DNA of 20,156 nucleotides from a virus. A program made the position numbers and the translations under genes. Below, piece after piece: positions 6,738 through 20,156 of the stretch; position 1 is the stretch's first letter, and each line of letters starts with the position of its first letter. The notes below the pieces were generated by a model, which saw nothing but the letters and a program-made list of their open reading frames with translations, ran no database searches and was not told the DNA's origin. The DNA is taken from positions 1 to 20,156 of IMG/VR virus record IMGVR_UViG_3300007540_000170. One strand, given 5' to 3'.

Positions 6738-6978
6738 CAGAGCTACAACTTGGTATTACTACGAAGGATGGAGGCTCTGTGAGATTAGTATAGGCAGTAA
6801 GTTTATTCATATAAAACCTTTGTTTGGAGGTTATTCAAAAAAGAAAATAGGTATACGAAAGGGTAGAGGCATATTAAAAGATATGTATTGGAGGGCTGCT
6901 AGATGCGATGCTTTCTTTAAAGCTTTGGGTGAAGGAAAGAAACGTAAGCCTAGAAACTGGGAGAAACTTTATGCCTAG
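6685..6978 (+). CDS. Basic hypothetical protein
   Basis: I chose the ATG at 6685 because AAGGA lies seven bases upstream. The alternative ATG at 6730 would give 82 residues and an 8-nt overlap, in line with the other junctions, but has no Shine-Dalgarno sequence. The product (97 residues from 6685) is aromatic and strongly basic: TTWYYYEGWRLC, then SKKKIGIRKGRG and KKRKPRNWEK. It could bind nucleic acid. No family recognised. Confidence 0.65.
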   Translation: MKKHLDLKDFLLSPKMSDRATTWYYYEGWRLCEISIGSKFIHIKPLFGGYSKKKIGIRKGRGILKDMYWRAARCDAFFKALGEGKKRKPRNWEKLYA

Positions 6979-7417
6979 GAAACTATATGAGACTAAGCAA
7001 TCTTTAGATGCTGAAAAGAATTTTGCTAAAGACTTACAGAAATATTTTAAAGTTAATTTAAAAAAACTACCTATGCAATATAGCTTAGACTTCGTAGCTA
7101 TAGATACTAAAAATTATAAGCCTAAGTTCTTTTTAGAACTAAAAGAACGTAGATGTAAACGTATTACTTATCCTACTTATATAATATCTTTATCTAAATT
7201 CCTGAAAGCTAAAGAGATTTATAGATCTTTAAATATGAATACCTACCTCTGTGTTAGATGGGCAGATGCTAGTGGTTATATTTGTCTCAATGATATTGAG
7301 GATGATAATATTGACATTACTATGGGAGGTCGTTATGATCGAAACGATTGGCAAGATGTAGAGCCATTGTTAACTATTGACATTGGAAAATTTATAATAA
7401 TTGGAGACACTGAATGA
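6971..7417 (+). CDS. Putative PD-(D/E)XK-like nuclease domain protein
   Basis: The 148-residue product has a pattern expected of a small PD-(D/E)XK fold: a helix at residues 11-26, then LDFVAID with D40 and a second strand ending FFLELKER with E56 and K58, and a later strand near 91-98 (TYLCVRWAD). The D-x15-E-x-K spacing is compatible with a metal-dependent nuclease core. Nothing else in the sequence names a family, and some phage proteins with this fold are inactive. Starts 8 nt inside the previous gene; GAGAAAC lies upstream. Confidence applies to the gene; the nuclease idea is weaker. Confidence 0.6.
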   Translation: MPRKLYETKQSLDAEKNFAKDLQKYFKVNLKKLPMQYSLDFVAIDTKNYKPKFFLELKERRCKRITYPTYIISLSKFLKAKEIYRSLNMNTYLCVRWADASGYICLNDIEDDNIDITMGGRYDRNDWQDVEPLLTIDIGKFIIIGDTE

Positions 7418-10112: not shown

Positions 10113-11854
10113 AATCATTAATTTTTGATATTGAAACAGATGGGATAACAGATGTAAGTGTTATCTGGTGTATCTCTGCTGTAGATTTAGATAGTAATAC
10201 TGTGTATGAGTTTGGCCCTAGTCAGATAGATGAAGGGGTCAAGCTACTACAACAGGCTGACAAGCTTATCGGTCATAATATTATTAACTATGATATACCT
10301 TGGATAGACAGGATGTGTGGCGTTGACCTATCAGATAAAAAACTGGTAGATACTTTAATCATTTCTAGATTGTTCAATCCAGTACGTGAAGGAGGTCATA
10401 GCCTTAAACAATGGGGTGAGTCGGTAGGCTTCTCTAAGAGTGGGTATGATGACTTTACAGCCTATAGTCCTGAAATGATGGCAAGATGTACCAGCGATGT
10501 TATTCTAAACAAGAAAGTTTATTTTGAACTACGCAAGGAAGCTGCGGGTTTCTCGAAACAGTCTATAGATATAGAGAATAAAGTTGCCCACATCCTGAAG
10601 GAACAGGAAGAACATGGCTTCTTGTTTGATCAGAAGACGGCATCTATTTTACTGGCAGAACTGAATGAAGAAGTTGAGATAGTAACTGCTGAAGTTAAGA
10701 AGCGATTCAAACCTAAGGTAGAAAGAATAGAAATATTCAAACGTCTAACCAAGTCAGGCAAAGTATCGAAGATGGGCGAAACTTTACAGGGTAAGGGACT
10801 AAGACTTACAGAAGATGATCACAAGGAAATAGCTAGTAAAGGATCTATCATACGTGAGAAAAGAATAGAGTTTAATCTAGGCTCACGCAAACAGATAGGA
10901 GAATATCTAAAAGAGTTTGGGTGGAAGCCCAAGAAGTTTACCCCAACAGGTCAGCCAATGGTTGATGAAAAGATATTATCTAATGTAAAAGGAATACCAG
11001 AAGCAGCACTGATAGGTAACTATTTGATGCTTCAGAAACGTATCTCACAGATAAATGCATGGTTCAAGGAGCTAGAAAAAGATGGCAGAGTGCATGGATT
11101 TGTTAACCATAATGGTACTGTTACTGGTAGAATGACTCATAGGAACCCCAACATGGCTCAAGTTCCAAGCTGTTCCGCTCCTTACGGTAAGGAATGCAGA
11201 GCTTGTTGGGTAGTTCCTTCTAAACATAAACTAGTAGGCATTGATGCTAGTGGTCTTGAGTTAAGAATACTTGCTCACTATATGAATGATGAGGGATTTA
11301 TAGATGAAATTCTCAACGGAGACATACACACAGCTAATCAAAGACTTGCAGGTCTTGAATCAAGAAATCAGGCAAAGACATTCATATATGCACTCATATA
11401 CGGAGCCGGAGATGAAAAGATTGGCACAGTGGTTGGAGGAAGCAAGAAAGACGGCAAAAGACTTAGAGACACTTTCCTCAATAATCTGCCATCATTTAGA
11501 ACTCTTATCGCTAAAGTATCGAGAGCTGCAACCAGAGGTTTCCTCAAAGGAATAGATGGTAGAAAAATAAAAGTTAGATCCCAACACAGTGCATTGAATG
11601 CCTTGTTACAGGGAGGAGGTGCTATCGCAATGAAGCAGGGATTGATTCTGTTTCATGAAAAGATACAGAAGTATAATGCTGTTGTAGTGGGCAACGTCCA
11701 CGATGAATGGCAAGTAGAAGTACCAGCCCAGTATGCAGAAGAAGTAGGGAGGGTAGGTGTTGAGTGTATTATACAGGCAGGTAAAGATCTAGAACTTAAC
11801 TGTCCCTTAGATGGTGAATATAAAATTGGAGATAACTGGAGTGAAACACATTAA
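10109..11854 (+). CDS. Family A DNA polymerase (T7 gp5-like)
   Basis: The 581-residue replicative polymerase carries a 3'-5' proofreading exonuclease (FDIETDG with D7 and E9; GHNIINYD with D62; D130 in the third motif) and polymerase motifs A (IDASGLELR, D379), B (RNQAKTFIYALIYGAG, R419, K423, Y427) and C (VHDEW, D532). Tyr427 is the equivalent of T7 Tyr526 and E. coli Phe762. The protein is about 120 residues shorter than T7 gp5 (704). Much of the difference precedes motif A (D379 against D475 in T7), which suggests the thioredoxin-binding insertion is absent. Coupled by ATGA to the primase-helicase gene. Confidence 0.97.
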   Translation: MKSLIFDIETDGITDVSVIWCISAVDLDSNTVYEFGPSQIDEGVKLLQQADKLIGHNIINYDIPWIDRMCGVDLSDKKLVDTLIISRLFNPVREGGHSLKQWGESVGFSKSGYDDFTAYSPEMMARCTSDVILNKKVYFELRKEAAGFSKQSIDIENKVAHILKEQEEHGFLFDQKTASILLAELNEEVEIVTAEVKKRFKPKVERIEIFKRLTKSGKVSKMGETLQGKGLRLTEDDHKEIASKGSIIREKRIEFNLGSRKQIGEYLKEFGWKPKKFTPTGQPMVDEKILSNVKGIPEAALIGNYLMLQKRISQINAWFKELEKDGRVHGFVNHNGTVTGRMTHRNPNMAQVPSCSAPYGKECRACWVVPSKHKLVGIDASGLELRILAHYMNDEGFIDEILNGDIHTANQRLAGLESRNQAKTFIYALIYGAGDEKIGTVVGGSKKDGKRLRDTFLNNLPSFRTLIAKVSRAATRGFLKGIDGRKIKVRSQHSALNALLQGGGAIAMKQGLILFHEKIQKYNAVVVGNVHDEWQVEVPAQYAEEVGRVGVECIIQAGKDLELNCPLDGEYKIGDNWSETH

Positions 11855-12128
11855 ACACGAACCAAACAGGGTAGGTGATCTAGGAGAATACTATGCTATC
11901 ACATGGTTATGGGATAATGGTTATCATGTCTTTAAAAACTGTGGGTGTACAGGCCCTATAGATATAGTAGCTCTTTCACCTGAAGGAAAGGTAACGCTCA
12001 TTGATGTTAAGTCTTACAAAGACAGTAGGCTATCATCGAAATCAGAATTACAAAAAAAACTGGGTGTACAGTACTTACACTATAACTCAAAGACGCGGAA
12101 GTGCCGCTTTGTGGAGCATAAGATATGA
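11841..12128 (+). CDS. Small PD-(D/E)XK nuclease, resolvase-like
   Basis: I start it at GTG 11841 (GGAG nine bases upstream, 14-nt overlap with the polymerase gene) rather than at ATG 11811, which would overlap by 44 nt. The 95 residues hold a compact PD-(D/E)XK core: VGDLGEYYA with E16, CTGPIDIVA with D41, and LIDVKSY with D55 and K57, then a basic strand. This pattern occurs in archaeal-type Holliday-junction resolvases and in small endonucleases of the PDDEXK_5 kind. In the replication operon it could trim or cleave branched or host DNA. Exact substrate unknown. Confidence 0.82.
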   Translation: MKHIKHEPNRVGDLGEYYAITWLWDNGYHVFKNCGCTGPIDIVALSPEGKVTLIDVKSYKDSRLSSKSELQKKLGVQYLHYNSKTRKCRFVEHKI

Positions 12129-12979
12129 AGTCATTACAAAATATAGTAGAAGATATATATGAAAATCTAAAGCCTCTCTGCAATGGTGAGTCCTTAGATA
12201 TATCAGAAGAAGAGATAGATAAGTTTGGCGAGGATATGAAAAACGTATTACGTCATTGGGCCAGACCTACTGCCAGAGATTCATCTTTTAAATTGAGAAT
12301 GTCTAACGTAGGTAAGCCCTCCCGTCAGTTATGGTATGACAACAAATCAGAAAAATCTTCTTCCCTTTCTCCCAGCACGATGATCAAGTTTTTTTACGGC
12401 CATATTCTCGAAGAAGTAGTTCTTCTGTTGGCTAGGCTTTCGGGTCATGATGTAACAGATGAGCAGAAGGAAGTAGAGATCAATGGAGTTAAAGGACATA
12501 TCGACTGCAAAATAGATGGTGAAGTTGTAGATGTAAAGACTGCATCCTCATTTGCCTTCAAGAAGTTTAGACATGGTACACTACCTGATGATGATCCTTT
12601 CGGTTACATTGCACAGATCTCTGGCTATGAACAGGCAGAAAAAAGTAGTCATGGCGGTTTCCTAGCGATTAACAAAGAGACAGGTGAGCTTGCTTTTTAT
12701 GAGCCTGATGAGCTTAGTAAGATAGATACTAAGAAACGTATCGTATCTCTCAAGAAAATATTAAAGTCTAATAGCCCTCCCTCAAAATGCTATCCTGATC
12801 TACCCGAAGGAGCGAAAGGAAACATGAAACTTAATCGTGGTTGTTCCTACTGCCCTCATAAGTTCATATGCCATTCTGATTCTAATAATGGCGAGGGGCT
12901 TAGAGGATTTAAATATGCCAAGGGCGTTACTTATTTCACAAAGATAGTCAAAGAACCTAATGTGGAAGAGATATTATGA
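12125..12979 (+). CDS. RecB/Cas4-like PD-(D/E)XK exonuclease with Fe-S-type cysteines
   Basis: This 284-residue protein has the RecB-family nuclease motifs: GHILEE with E96, GHIDCKIDG with D127, VVDVKTAS with D136 and K138, and QISGY with Q164 and Y168. The C-terminal region carries C222, C240, C243 and C249 (GCSYCPHKFIC), as in Cas4/AddB-type nucleases that hold a 4Fe-4S cluster. It sits where T7 has gene 6 exonuclease, so it probably degrades host DNA and removes primers. In Cas4/AddB the first cysteine lies before the nuclease core, while here the residue at that place looks like Ser66, and C222 may substitute. Coupled by ATGA on both sides. Confidence 0.88.
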   Translation: MKSLQNIVEDIYENLKPLCNGESLDISEEEIDKFGEDMKNVLRHWARPTARDSSFKLRMSNVGKPSRQLWYDNKSEKSSSLSPSTMIKFFYGHILEEVVLLLARLSGHDVTDEQKEVEINGVKGHIDCKIDGEVVDVKTASSFAFKKFRHGTLPDDDPFGYIAQISGYEQAEKSSHGGFLAINKETGELAFYEPDELSKIDTKKRIVSLKKILKSNSPPSKCYPDLPEGAKGNMKLNRGCSYCPHKFICHSDSNNGEGLRGFKYAKGVTYFTKIVKEPNVEEIL

Positions 12980-13224
12980 ATGGTAGAAAAAGTAAATTAG
13001 CGAGAAGGCTTGCTAAAGACCTAGCATTTGGATGGCTTAAAACTCTAGTCTCTTCAGAAGAAGCAGAGAAGATAACTCAAGATAACTTTATGGATCTCAT
13101 GCCTACACAGACCCATATCATGAATGAAGGACAGATGCGTTTGATGCCTAATACCTACAGGTGGTTTATTAAACAGGTCAAAACATCTGGAGTGGATCAT
13201 ATAAATGATAGAAAATTTAGATAG
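12976..13224 (+). CDS. Hypothetical protein
   Basis: Eighty-two residues, coupled by ATGA to the exonuclease gene. The N-terminus is basic (NGRKSKLARRLAKD) and the C-terminal part has NTYRWFIKQVK. A basic NGRK start occurs in several small phage proteins I remember from replication regions, without a known role. The sequence suggests a helical, possibly nucleic-acid-binding protein. Overlaps the next gene by 20 nt. Confidence 0.68.
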   Translation: MNGRKSKLARRLAKDLAFGWLKTLVSSEEAEKITQDNFMDLMPTQTHIMNEGQMRLMPNTYRWFIKQVKTSGVDHINDRKFR

Positions 13225-13375
13225 TATTGATCTAGTAGATTTGATTATAATGACTAGTGAATTCCTGTTATCTAATAACGCCGACATTGCTGAGATTCCT
13301 GATGCCGTTATTGAAAGAATCTGTGATCTTACTGACTATGAGTTAGGCTTTAGACTTGAGAGTACAATACATTGA
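13205..13375 (+). CDS. Small acidic hypothetical protein (56 aa)
   Basis: GGAG lies 12 bases before the ATG at 13205 and the frame is open for 56 residues. The product is acidic and Leu/Ile-rich (ENLDSIDLVDLIIM, ERICDLTDYELGF), probably three short helices. Its stop codon TGA overlaps the TTG start of the endonuclease I gene by 4 nt, the same coupling pattern used across the operon, which supports a real gene. No family recognised. Confidence 0.65.
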   Translation: MIENLDSIDLVDLIIMTSEFLLSNNADIAEIPDAVIERICDLTDYELGFRLESTIH

Positions 13376-13884
13376 CAAAAGCAAAGATCAGGAAAGGCTA
13401 CAGAAAAAGCAGGGTAAAACGTCCTGTAGAAAAGAACGTACCTACTAGTTATGATTCCATTTGGGAGTACACTTTGCATAGTGGTCTTCTTAAAAATTGG
13501 AAACATCATGACCGGAAGATCCCTTACACAGTTAACCATGTCTATCATCCAGACTTTAGCAAGAAGGTAGGGCGCAAGACTTATCTTATAGAAGCTAAGG
13601 GCCGCTTTTGGGATTACTCAGAATACAATAAATATATCTGGATAAAAAAGATGCTTCCTCCTAATGTGGAATTAGTATTTCTTTTCGCTAATCCTAACGC
13701 TCCAATGCCTCAGGCTAAAAGACGCAAGGACGGAACCAAACGAAGTCATGGTGAATGGGCAGGAGCTAATGGCTTCAAATGGTATAGTGAAGAAAGTATT
13801 CCAGATGATTGGGTAGATATGGAGTACCGTGAAAGCGAACAGTTTAAAGAAGAGTATTATGATATAGATAAGGAGCAAGAATAA
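13372..13884 (+). CDS. T7 gp3-type endonuclease I (Holliday junction resolvase)
   Basis: The 170-residue product resembles the T7 endonuclease I family, which cleaves branched and mismatched DNA and helps degrade the host chromosome. Catalytic residues line up as E32 (IWEYTL), D61 (YHPDF), E74 and K76 (IEAKG), with RFWD next, as T7 has KGLWD. The C-terminal part also follows T7: a short positive segment, SHGEW, then a Gly and FKWY, and SIPDDWV. The start must be TTG 13372, since an in-frame stop at 13357-13359 and no ATG or GTG lie between. It overlaps the upstream stop by 4 nt. The basic N-terminal 20 residues are an extension. Confidence 0.92.
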   Translation: MTKAKIRKGYRKSRVKRPVEKNVPTSYDSIWEYTLHSGLLKNWKHHDRKIPYTVNHVYHPDFSKKVGRKTYLIEAKGRFWDYSEYNKYIWIKKMLPPNVELVFLFANPNAPMPQAKRRKDGTKRSHGEWAGANGFKWYSEESIPDDWVDMEYRESEQFKEEYYDIDKEQE

Positions 13885-14186
13885 TGATTGAGAACACAAA
13901 AGTCACAGATAACGATCCTGTGAATAGTCCTACCCATTATAATTCAGGCAAGCTTGAGTGCATCGAGGCTATGGAAGCCATGCTTAACCCTGAGGAGTTT
14001 ATAGGTTACTTGAGGGGCAACAGCCTAAAATACAGATGGCGTTTCCGCTACAAGAATGGCATAGAAGATTTATATAAAGCACGATGGTACGAGGACAGAC
14101 TTATTAAGTATATAGAAAAAAATGGATGTAAAGTAAAAGAGGAACCTTACCTCGATTATTTAAAGGATCATTATAATGACAACTAA
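13884..14186 (+). CDS. DUF3310 protein
   Basis: The 100-residue protein has the DUF3310 signature: DPVNSPTHYNSGKLECIEAME, then FIGYLRGNSLKYRWR, and GIEDLYKARWYEDRLI (each quoted in part). The family is widespread in tailed phages, often annotated loosely as a nucleotide kinase, but no activity has been proven to my knowledge. Location between endonuclease I and nrdA fits a role in nucleotide or DNA metabolism. It starts by TAATG coupling and overlaps nrdA by 11 nt. Confidence 0.9.
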   Translation: MIENTKVTDNDPVNSPTHYNSGKLECIEAMEAMLNPEEFIGYLRGNSLKYRWRFRYKNGIEDLYKARWYEDRLIKYIEKNGCKVKEEPYLDYLKDHYNDN

Positions 14187-17410: not shown

Positions 17411-17634
17411 AAAAAGGTAATATTGTTTCTATGGCAGTTCAGCTAGGAATTGATGGTAATATATACTGTGAGTTCGCTGAACTTCCTTTTGAAGAAATAG
17501 AAAAAGTATTTAAAAATAAATACGAAGCCTCTTTAATAAAGACTATTCATACGTTTATGAATAAGAAATTTAAAGAGTCTTCGATTTCTTTAGAAAAAGA
17601 AATGCAAGCAGTTACTGCTACCATAGTTAAGTAG
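17407..17634 (+). CDS. Hypothetical protein at the end of the replication operon
   Basis: It starts at GTG 17407 by GTGA coupling to nrdB and encodes 75 residues. N-terminal strands (NIVSMAVQLGIDG, YCEFAEL) are followed by a helical Lys/Glu-rich C-terminal half. No family recognised. It is the last plus-strand gene, and its 3' end overlaps by 8 nt the 3' end of the lysozyme gene on the other strand. Confidence 0.68.
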   Translation: MKKGNIVSMAVQLGIDGNIYCEFAELPFEEIEKVFKNKYEASLIKTIHTFMNKKFKESSISLEKEMQAVTATIVK

Positions 17635-18040
17635 GATATTCATTAGTACGAATCATAGCGGCTATTTCTGTAGCCCTATTCCCTACTTGATCAGCCCATC
17701 GAGATCTCAAAAATTCATCGGCTGCTTCTGTGTACTTACGCTGAGACATAAAGTCTAAGGCTTTGACAAAAGTAGCTAGCCTTGGAACCCCCATATTAAA
17801 TGCTAGATTCAACAGGGCATCCTTCCTAGCTCCTTCTAAATACTTATAGAAATAAAATCTTTCGGTTAGCTCTTCATGAAAGTTTTGTATGTCATTCTTC
17901 AGGAGGTATCTGGCCTCATCTTCACTGATGCCACAATCTTCTAAGTTTCTACCCACACCGATAGTTAATTTATTTGAAGTACATCGGTAAGGTTCAAGTT
18001 TTAAACCTTCATGTCTTATTAGTAAATCAATCAGCCCCAT
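17627..18040 (-). CDS. T4-type lysozyme (GH24 endolysin)
   Basis: The 137-residue product is a muramidase that cleaves the glycan chain of peptidoglycan for lysis. The N-terminal pattern is that of T4 lysozyme: E11 (RHEGLKLEPY), then position 20 and T26 (LTIGVGRNL). The middle acid, Asp20 in T4, is Cys20 here; D20C variants of T4 lysozyme are known to remain active, so this is probably functional. The C-terminal helical domain (ARKDALLNLAFNMG, then RSRWADQVGNRA) is intact. There is no signal peptide, so a holin is needed. AAGG lies five bases before the ATG, inside the upstream gene's end (14-nt overlap). Confidence 0.95.
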   Translation of the reverse strand: MGLIDLLIRHEGLKLEPYRCTSNKLTIGVGRNLEDCGISEDEARYLLKNDIQNFHEELTERFYFYKYLEGARKDALLNLAFNMGVPRLATFVKALDFMSQRKYTEAADEFLRSRWADQVGNRATEIAAMIRTNEYPT

Positions 18041-19328
18041 AAAGCCTTTCCCTTAAAAGATTTTCATAGCCTTCATCATCCAGATGAGTAACAGCAATCC
18101 AAGCGTGAGACATCTCATCACCAGTACGGCTTCCACCTACCACCCACTGATCAGGATCAGGGTTATTAGGGTTATCTTCTGTGTTGTCGTACCATTGTTT
18201 TACTACCATTACTTCTCCTGCAAGCAACAAGGGAGCCTCTGAGGGGCTGTATAGATGACTGTGGTGCCAAGTAGCACTCCAATTAGATATCTGACTGACG
18301 GGTCTTGTACGTCCTGTAAGGGGGCTAAATATCTCTAGTGAAGCAGCATTCATACGAAGATGACCGTGGGGCTGGAAGCTATCTATCCTGACAGGGTGAT
18401 CAAAGCTGTGAAACCCTTGTGTCATAGTGTAACCATTAGGAGGAATAATTAAATGTCCATTCTCATAACCATCCCTTAGAGGATAGAGCTTTAAGTCTTG
18501 TTGATAGACATCGTTGTTAGCTTGATAGTCTTCTTCATGAAACCATAAACCAATCTCTACCACATTATCTTTAATCATGTTCCCTTCTGCTGTGGCTCCT
18601 ACACCACCGGGAAACATATGGATATCCCAACGCACCAAAGAGTTAGCAGGGAAAGTACGGCACACTCCTTGAGGCATTAATTCACCCCACTTGCCCATAG
18701 CATATTCAGTCAACTGACCATACTGCTGCAGCTCTCCTTCATCATCATATACATATACATCTGAGTTAGCGTGATGAACTACAGCCGCTGCATCACCCCT
18801 AGGCTTAACCTGTACAGCTTTTATACAACGTGTTTCAGCTAATTGAGGATCTACAAACTCCTTGCTCCATAGGTCATTGCCAGTAGCAGGGATGTCGTAG
18901 GATGAAGAAGGTATGATAAGGTCAGGACTACCAAACTCTGGCTCAAAATTCCAAGATTCTAAACTAGGTAGGGCAGGAGGCTGAACAACTGTATCTCGAC
19001 TACCATAAGGAGAACCAGAGTTTACCCAGTTCACAACAGTTTCTATTTGATCTTGTGATAGTCTCCAATCTCCTTCAAGGTTTTGAATGCCTATATGATC
19101 ATCATAAGCATAAGGGGGCATCTCTCTATTAGCTACCTTATGGGAAATTAAAGGAGACCAAGGTCTTACCTGTTCATAAGTCTCAAAAGACATAGGGCCT
19201 ATACCGCCTTCCCTGTGGCAGACAACACAGTTATTATTTATTATACTTGCTACCGTATCGACATATGTATCATCGGCTTGAGCCGCCGTAGCTAGTCCCA
19301 TACAAACAGCTAATAAAGTCTTTTTCAT
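18027..19328 (-). CDS. Secreted cytochrome c plus PHM-like copper monooxygenase
   Basis: The 433-residue product has a Sec signal peptide (MKKTLLAVCMGLATAAQA), a small cytochrome c domain with the haem site C34-V-V-C37-H38, GPMSF (M46) and REMPPY (M70) as possible axial ligand region, and a large C-terminal domain. The latter shows the copper ligands of peptidylglycine alpha-hydroxylating monooxygenase: H185-H186, H237, H321-x-H323 (QPHGHL) and M406 (TGDEM), plus NPNNPDP. It would act in the periplasm after host haem attachment and oxidise an unknown substrate, the haem perhaps supplying electrons. ATG 19328 follows AGGTGG and is one base after the lipoprotein stop; TTG 19343 is rejected. Phages are not known to me to carry such a gene. 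Confidence 0.88.
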   Translation of the reverse strand: MKKTLLAVCMGLATAAQADDTYVDTVASIINNNCVVCHREGGIGPMSFETYEQVRPWSPLISHKVANREMPPYAYDDHIGIQNLEGDWRLSQDQIETVVNWVNSGSPYGSRDTVVQPPALPSLESWNFEPEFGSPDLIIPSSSYDIPATGNDLWSKEFVDPQLAETRCIKAVQVKPRGDAAAVVHHANSDVYVYDDEGELQQYGQLTEYAMGKWGELMPQGVCRTFPANSLVRWDIHMFPGGVGATAEGNMIKDNVVEIGLWFHEEDYQANNDVYQQDLKLYPLRDGYENGHLIIPPNGYTMTQGFHSFDHPVRIDSFQPHGHLRMNAASLEIFSPLTGRTRPVSQISNWSATWHHSHLYSPSEAPLLLAGEVMVVKQWYDNTEDNPNNPDPDQWVVGGSRTGDEMSHAWIAVTHLDDEGYENLLRERLYGAD

Positions 19329-19329
19329 A

Positions 19330-19500
19330 TTACCACCTATCAAATAGTTGATCCGCAGAGCAGTGAGGCTGTGATCTACAGTCTCTAAGATTCATCTGAA
19401 ACAATTCCTCAGGCATAGTGTTAGGAAACTCTATAGGAAAATCGTAGTTCGATGTTGAACAGCCAGTTAAAATAAGTAATGCACATAGTGAGTATTTCAT
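19330..19500 (-). CDS. Small lipoprotein, possible outer-membrane spanin
   Basis: This 56-residue gene has a typical lipoprotein signal peptide: MKYSLCALLILTGC with the lipobox LTGC, so the mature protein would begin at C14 and be about 43 residues, anchored in the host outer or inner membrane. C41 and C47 may form a disulfide. Residue +2 is Ser, which favours outer-membrane sorting. Size and closeness to the lysozyme fit an o-spanin (Rz1-like), although it is not very proline-rich and no i-spanin is visible. The alternative is an accessory of the cytochrome protein, whose gene starts one base after this stop. Confidence 0.78.
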   Translation of the reverse strand: MKYSLCALLILTGCSTSNYDFPIEFPNTMPEELFQMNLRDCRSQPHCSADQLFDRW

Positions 19501-19502
19501 AA

Positions 19503-20156
19503 TTATCTTAGATTGTATGCAAAACTACCAGATTCTACTTTATCTAGATCGTTCACATTAAATACTAAATCTTCTCCATATATTAAAGGTTTCCCTTCAG
19601 CTAATTTTTTACTTGTGTTGTAATAGGCTAGTGCCAGTTTAGTTTTTGCATCTTCTTCGTTTTCTGCCACATCTCTTAGATTAGCACCGTATGCATTATT
19701 AACCATATCTAGTTTTTCAGTATTAGGGTTTTCTCTAAAAAACGATTGGCCTATTTCCTTTGCCTGAAGTAAAGGATCTTTAAGCGTAGAGCCATGCTTG
19801 TATACTAGGTAGGCATGATTTAAAGCATTGAAGGCTTCTTCATCAGCCCCCGAACCAAACTTCCCGAACCCTGCTTCATCAGTAGGTATCATAGATCTTT
19901 GAGGTATTAGGCCCTGTTCAGCAAATTGATTTACTAAACGAACAACTTCTTTTTCATGAGCGCGTTGCTGTTCTGCACCAAAGCCTAAAGCTTCGGCTCC
20001 AGCCGTAAGAGTTTTATTAAATATCTTTTTTAATACGCCGCCGTCTGCAAAGTCGGCTCTATCAAGTTCTGCTATCCTTTCTTTTCTTTCTAATAGCAGC
20101 TCTTTTAATTCTTCAGTATCACCATTTGCTTTTGCCGTGGCTATCATCTCTTCGTA
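19503..20156 (-). CDS. C-terminal part of a phage protein, cut by the window edge
   Basis: The frame is open to the right edge (codons for Tyr, Glu and Glu precede the first Met at 20147), so 217 codons of a longer gene are probably seen. It is acidic and helical. A segment near the middle contains NALNHAY, and after about 40 residues DMVNNAYG, a pattern resembling His/Asn motifs (NAxxHAY, DxxNN) I recall from uncharacterised domains in phage virion and toxin-like proteins. No firm family. Its stop lies two bases before the lipoprotein ATG, so the minus-strand genes form one operon. A virion or tail-associated role is a guess. Confidence 0.75.
   Translation of the reverse strand, partial: YEEMIATAKANGDTEELKELLLERKERIAELDRADFADGGVLKKIFNKTLTAGAEALGFGAEQQRAHEKEVVRLVNQFAEQGLIPQRSMIPTDEAGFGKFGSGADEEAFNALNHAYLVYKHGSTLKDPLLQAKEIGQSFFRENPNTEKLDMVNNAYGANLRDVAENEEDAKTKLALAYYNTSKKLAEGKPLIYGEDLVFNVNDLDKVESGSFAYNLR

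Follow-up and report, generated by a model that had tools for sequence, protein, structure and literature searches.

Copper enzymes of the PHM/DBH type (Pfam Cu2_monooxygen/Cu2_monoox_C) act in animal hormone processing. They are secretory proteins built on a double jelly-roll that carries two separate copper sites, the CuH site with the ligand pattern HH..H and the CuM site with HxH..M, and in rat PHM the residues R240, N316 and Y318 hold the peptide carboxylate. Pseudohongiella and other marine Gammaproteobacteria encode cytochrome c-PHM-like proteins. Among the auxiliary metabolic genes of phages psbA is a known case. Viral amoC, nirK and norB have also been described (PMC8115048).

Here we analyze a gene, termed A, that lies in a 20,156-nucleotide stretch of viral DNA (IMG/VR record IMGVR_UViG_3300007540_000170; "the window" below). 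A preliminary description made from the letters of the window had read this gene as a phage-borne cytochrome c fused to a PHM-like copper monooxygenase. Gene A shares with PHM/DBH the double jelly-roll, the two separate copper sites and a (predicted) secretory location, but it is only 9–15% identical to these enzymes and the counterparts of R240, N316 and Y318 are replaced. Unlike them it is viral, is fused to a cytochrome c domain and has two conserved cysteines (168 and 223) and a WHHSH motif of its own. The likeness to the gammaproteobacterial proteins is far closer, with homology over the full length, the same domain order, the same ligands and 66–79% identity. As with psbA, amoC and nirK/norB, A is a host-derived redox enzyme under selection in marine phages, whereas, unlike those known genes, it unites haem c with the fold of a dicopper monooxygenase in a single protein predicted to be exported.

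Results

Gene A and its haem domain

The features of the locus are collected in Table 1. The gene A frame is open exactly from 19328 to 18027, just as first described, and a Shine-Dalgarno-like AGGTGG lies immediately 5' of the ATG. The N-terminus is hydrophobic in 127 of 132 viral copies of A by a crude pattern test. The cytochrome c matches of gene A in Pfam are weak and score below cut-off (best E 2.4e-3); PF13442 is matched by 66 of the 72 members of the alignment of viral and bacterial relatives. The CxxCH motif and Met70 are invariant in all 71 family members having the haem domain, and equally so across 37 viral orthologues and 24 sampled bacterial ones. With CxxCH, an axial Met and a predicted export signal, the N-terminal domain has at the level of sequence the hallmarks of a class I c-type cytochrome. 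No family corresponding to gene A was found in PHROGs or NCBIfam.

Table 1. Positions of gene A, its predicted functional elements and the adjoining genes in the window
Feature	Coordinates	Strand	Evidence
Probable C-terminal part of large virion protein upstream of A	19503..20156	-	open at window end
Lipoprotein-like ORF, 56 aa, LTGC lipobox, 1 nt before A	19330..19500	-	sequence; context
Gene A, predicted secreted cytochrome c - PHM/DBH-like copper protein, 433 aa	18027..19328	-	ORF, alignment, AlphaFold2 model and Foldseek
Signal peptide (predicted), residues 1-18, MKKTLLAVCMGLATAAQA	19275..19328	-	sequence; N-terminus low pLDDT
Monohaem cytochrome c domain, residues 19-110	18999..19274	-	PF13442 E 2.4e-3, PF00034 E 5.6e-3
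CVVCH haem c attachment motif, residues 34-38	19215..19229	-	sequence
Met70, probable axial haem ligand	19119..19121	-	invariance
PHM/DBH-like double jelly-roll copper domain, residues about 124-416	18081..18959	-	Foldseek PDB matches 1-30 all DBH/PHM
His185-His186, two of the three CuH ligands	18771..18776	-	invariant in 72/72 members
His237, third CuH ligand	18618..18620	-	invariant in 72/72 members
His321-x-His323, CuM ligands	18360..18368	-	invariant in all A and all viral B
Met406 in TGDEM segment, third CuM ligand	18111..18113	-	invariant in 72/72 members
Phage lysozyme/endolysin	17627..18040	-	PF00959 5e-15; phrog_7 4.7e-20

Fold and ligands of the copper domain

The structure of gene A was modelled by AlphaFold2 on the alignment of 72 viral and bacterial relatives (mean pLDDT 87.4, pTM 0.85). 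The best 30 PDB matches of this model in Foldseek are DBH or PHM only, each with a probability of 1.00 (E 2.8e-11 to 3.3e-8), while the first match that is neither DBH nor PHM has a TM-score of 0.15. Against PHM the model reaches moderate TM-scores of about 0.6, normalized to the length of PHM. The separately modelled paralogue B (see below) has DBH/PHM as its top 31 PDB matches. A structural library of viral proteins contained no real relative of the gene A model (best TM <0.3); weaker Foldseek matches to viral capsids reflect the common jelly-roll fold and not kinship. PDB sequence searches with A, with the 72-member alignment and with B found no PHM, which was retrieved by the structure model alone. 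In Pfam the window protein has no copper-monooxygenase match, and Cu2_monoox_C is matched by 13 of the 72 family members (best E 5e-4). The profile evidence for A itself falls below threshold; the assignment of the copper domain is based on the model and on the conservation of the ligands.

All six predicted copper ligands are kept in the 37 viral and 24 bacterial orthologues of A. The signal peptide, the CVVCH motif and the ligands H185, H186, H237, H321, H323 and M406 had all been named in the preliminary description; each is present, and a loss of ligands is nowhere seen among these 61 viral and bacterial sequences, in which they are invariant. The proposed fusion of a cytochrome c to a PHM-like domain is likewise borne out by the DBH/PHM matches of the predicted model and by the weak cytochrome c match. 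In 16 of 17 bacterial redoxin-cytochrome-PHM paralogues the HxH of CuM is replaced, mostly by R and N, with CuH and the haem kept (L117:6615-8354 on the minus strand and its relatives are of this kind); judged from their residues, these paralogues without the CuM HxH are probably non-hydroxylating members of the family.

The residues that would contact a peptide differ. Counted from the ligands, the A counterparts of PHM R240, N316 and Y318 are Q319, H408 and W410, which are invariant in A. By fold and copper ligands gene A looks like a PHM-type monooxygenase, and by its peptide-binding residues it does not look like PHM proper, so that a peptide, one of the substrates first considered, has become a weaker option. 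Cys168, Cys223 and the WHHSH motif (residues 354-358) are features of A that are missing in B.

The gene A slot in the window's phage

The DNA polymerase of the window is 49% identical to its counterpart in Pelagibacter phage HTVC115P, and by sequence the window's phage is an HMO-2011-like podophage. In a 52-kb relative (G001) a terminase, a portal and a capsid protein (57.5% identical to that of HTVC115P) are encoded, as is, upstream of A, a virion protein of 1,800 aa. Gene order is similar to that of HTVC115P (HMO-2011-type) up to the RNR, but the slot that holds Hsp20 and small genes in HTVC115P is occupied in the window by the lipoprotein-like ORF, A and the endolysin. Elsewhere the window encodes a cysteine-rich phage protein of the GP88 family (2281-2910; PF17338, E 6e-31) and, beside the replication genes, a PDDEXK_14 endonuclease (6908-7417) and a small NERD/Holliday-resolvase-like protein (11811-12128).

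In the window's clade the genes run from the virion protein through the 56-aa lipoprotein-like ORF and A to the endolysin, with RNR next on the opposite strand. An ORF of 56–62 aa occupies the same position upstream of A in most contigs of this clade, and in contigs identical to the window it is preceded by a protein of about 1,600 aa. The start of the endolysin overlaps the end of gene A by 14 nt in the window, and an overlap of 14–20 nt recurs in at least 20 contigs with A identities of 80–100% (A is identical or nearly so to that of the window in 4 of the 20). In the window's clade gene A is a phage gene. The earlier claim that the genes around A belong to a phage and not to host DNA holds in at least 20 contigs and extends to unrelated phage lineages; the suggested search of marine viral genomes for the same fusion with phage neighbours yielded at least 20 contigs with the same slot and 257 related stretches.

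Distribution of A, its paralogue B and a small cytochrome c

The 257 IMG/VR stretches that encode relatives of A are redundant records and do not amount to a count of phages; A is absent from all 50,697 isolate phage records searched. The carriers include podophages, T4-like phages and jumbo phages. In the T4-like phages A and B adjoin gp21/gp22/gp23-like, UvsW- and UvsY-like genes, of which gp23 was named by a family match and gp21, gp22, UvsW and UvsY by eye from sequence, and the gp23 of these phages shares 70% identity with its counterpart in Methylophilales phage Melnitz and 69% with the one in HTVC008M. The gp23 family is found above cut-off in 5 of 27 tested A-holding records, one of them of 340 kb, and in many other phages A lies near a gp23 capsid gene, Hsp20-like or tail genes.

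B is a second cytochrome c-PHM paralogue, about 27% identical to A (e.g. L054:11259-12488), with relatives in at least 88 stretches of the viral collection. Most phages outside the window's clade carry it directly downstream of A. By the unbiased count, made over loci retrieved by A alone, B comes after A in 30 of the 37 non-RNR loci having enough downstream sequence and in only 2 of the 25 RNR-bearing loci, which are the window's kind. In 23 loci a small class I cytochrome c accompanies A or separates it from B. Six loci have an ORF of about 233 aa that joins a redoxin-like part to a cytochrome c, and in five of the six a PHM-like ORF of about 315 aa stands on its own (as at L034:11611-12309 and 12947-13897; also L031 and L033). 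Sequence comparison identifies these two ORFs as B split in two by gene fission in one phage group, the pair matching one three-domain bacterial protein. A flavin/ferredoxin-reductase-like ORF (L194:19189-19914) and an IscA/HesB-like ORF (L186:3140-3514), both recognized by eye, recur in phages with A and B.

Ancestry and selection

The bacterial relatives of A that were found, at 66–79% identity, all come from genomes of Gammaproteobacteria or unclassified Proteobacteria. Trees of A and B were built by a quick method with SH-aLRT support only. The tree of 83 A proteins, of the kind that had been proposed as a check, places 30 of the 31 viral rows in a single clade (SH-aLRT 96) that is nested within the bacterial sequences. 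The remaining viral row, L043, branches among bacteria; L043 and L045 are short IMG/VR contigs with A and no recognizable phage gene near it, and may be host DNA filed as viral. A single viral clade nested in gammaproteobacterial A genes points to one old capture followed by spread between phages. Viral B, including the split form, also forms a single clade (SH-aLRT 98), to which the nearest proteins are bacterial redoxin-cytochrome-PHM proteins of about 560–595 aa at 49–54% identity; compared with this bacterial counterpart, phage B has lost the N-terminal redoxin-like domain or is divided into two genes. With a single capture, spread across lineages and a second paralogue, the picture is stronger than the one first put forward.

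Between viral A genes dN/dS is 0.055–0.072 (three pairs with unsaturated dS), indicating strong purifying selection. The GC3 of A is 0.33, equal to that of the phage genes, whereas bacterial A genes have a GC of 0.46–0.63. Host-derived, carried in phage genomes and under selection, A has the sequence attributes of a phage auxiliary metabolic gene.

Bacterial neighbourhoods

In bacteria, genes of the cytochrome c-PHM-like family are arranged in tandem and accompanied by genes for dehydrogenases and transporters; phages have them in late operons, as A alone or A plus B. A GMC oxidoreductase and the Gluconate_2-dh3 protein that partners it often come next after the bacterial A arrays, and a cupin, a transporter-like gene and two secreted proteins also accompany these arrays. 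The GMC oxidoreductase/Gluconate_2-dh3 neighbourhood would fit an alcohol made by A and then oxidized by the dehydrogenase. Three donor-type genomes (G031, G032 and G033) have 16–36 B-like and 5–16 close A-like matches each.

These Pseudohongiella-type genomes (loci L087, L117 and L101, respectively) also have 11–19 PAL-like propeller genes per genome, which match 3fvz (E 2e-23); PAL is the lyase partner of PHM. In G031 a PHM-like gene is found no more than 10 kb from 7 of the 19 PAL-like genes, where chance would give 1.5, and in G032 6 of 12 have one nearby, again with 1.5 expected (a rough binomial on counts made by hand); in G033 co-location is not above chance. The excess in two of the three genomes is a lead towards a possible PAL partner. 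No PAL-like gene is clustered with A in the viral loci.

Discussion

The identity of gene A is firm, and its activity and role are what we infer. We consider it fairly probable that A is a periplasmic, cytochrome-fed, O2-dependent monooxygenase that serves as an auxiliary metabolic enzyme, with a substrate that is probably not a peptide. The product of A, a gene that lies among the late genes of lytic marine phages, would be exported to the host periplasm; haem c would be attached by host machinery, and copper would load the PHM/DBH-type domain. The haem domain would replace ascorbate by passing electrons from the host periplasmic cytochrome pool to CuH, while CuM would activate O2 for C-H hydroxylation, the target being some small molecule or a component of the surface and probably no peptidylglycine. 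A small cytochrome c beside A, or between A and B, is what would be expected if electrons arrive by cytochrome, although the cytochrome domain of A could instead draw electrons out of the copper domain. Phage ancestors acquired A, and in many phages also B, from gammaproteobacteria like Pseudohongiella, in whose genomes the family is greatly expanded. What a phage would be likely to gain is a periplasmic oxidation route (for carbon, nitrogen or electrons) that is kept open as host synthesis shuts down. A dN/dS of about 0.06 together with the 257 viral stretches argues that A is in use. The slot of A within the late operon, beside the endolysin or after a gp23 capsid gene, also speaks for this reading.

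A more tentative extension concerns a mobile periplasmic oxidation cassette of A, small cytochrome c and B that several marine phage lineages may have in common. Possibly its two haem-copper monooxygenases and their carrier make up a phage-made electron chain, fed by host respiratory cytochromes, that hydroxylates an abundant marine compound during infection.

The cytochrome c domain, with the additional small cytochrome c found between A and B, would also suit an electron relay if A were a redox protein and not a hydroxylase, its haem and copper moving electrons to O2 or away from copper, as an electron sink or respiratory modulator. The 16 of 17 bacterial redoxin-type paralogues without the HxH ligands of the O2-activating CuM site imply that non-hydroxylating members of the family probably exist. 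However, viral A, viral B and bacterial A keep all three CuM ligands, which a plain electron carrier would not need, and we regard this alternative as rather unlikely. A different role is suggested by the position of A in the window's clade, where a lipoprotein-like ORF and the endolysin flank it and frames overlap, namely an alteration of the cell surface or periplasm for the phage cycle, either as superinfection exclusion or as preparation of the envelope for lysis. This seems improbable, as the neighbours of A in many other phages are gp23, Hsp20-like or tail genes and not lysis genes, and the chromosomal genes most closely related to it have dehydrogenase, cupin and transporter genes as neighbours rather than genes for envelope biogenesis. 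Bacterial copies of up to 79% identity, and L043 and L045 as examples of the few IMG/VR records that may be host DNA, would be in keeping with a host passenger gene or a host/phage misassembly, but such an origin is rejected for the window's clade by the endolysin junction repeated in 20 contigs, the phage-like GC3 and the strong purifying selection, and with T4 gp23 and A in the same record in 5 of 27 cases it is very improbable overall.

A search of open-licence PubMed Central papers turned up no account of a PHM, Cu2_monooxygenase or ascorbate-dependent monooxygenase in phages, in agreement with the preliminary description, whose author knew of no phage system with this enzyme. As far as searched, A would add a dicopper, O2-dependent, haem-fused enzyme class to the known gene content of phages, and by its predicted location it would work beyond the cytoplasm, in a compartment in which few metabolic genes of phages are active. 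A single capture from marine gammaproteobacteria followed by spread over podophages, T4-like phages and jumbo phages suggests an advantage that is both strong and general. Gene A also draws notice to an uncharacterized family with 16–36 copies per genome in Pseudohongiella-type bacteria, the substrate of which may be approached from either the phage or the bacterial side.
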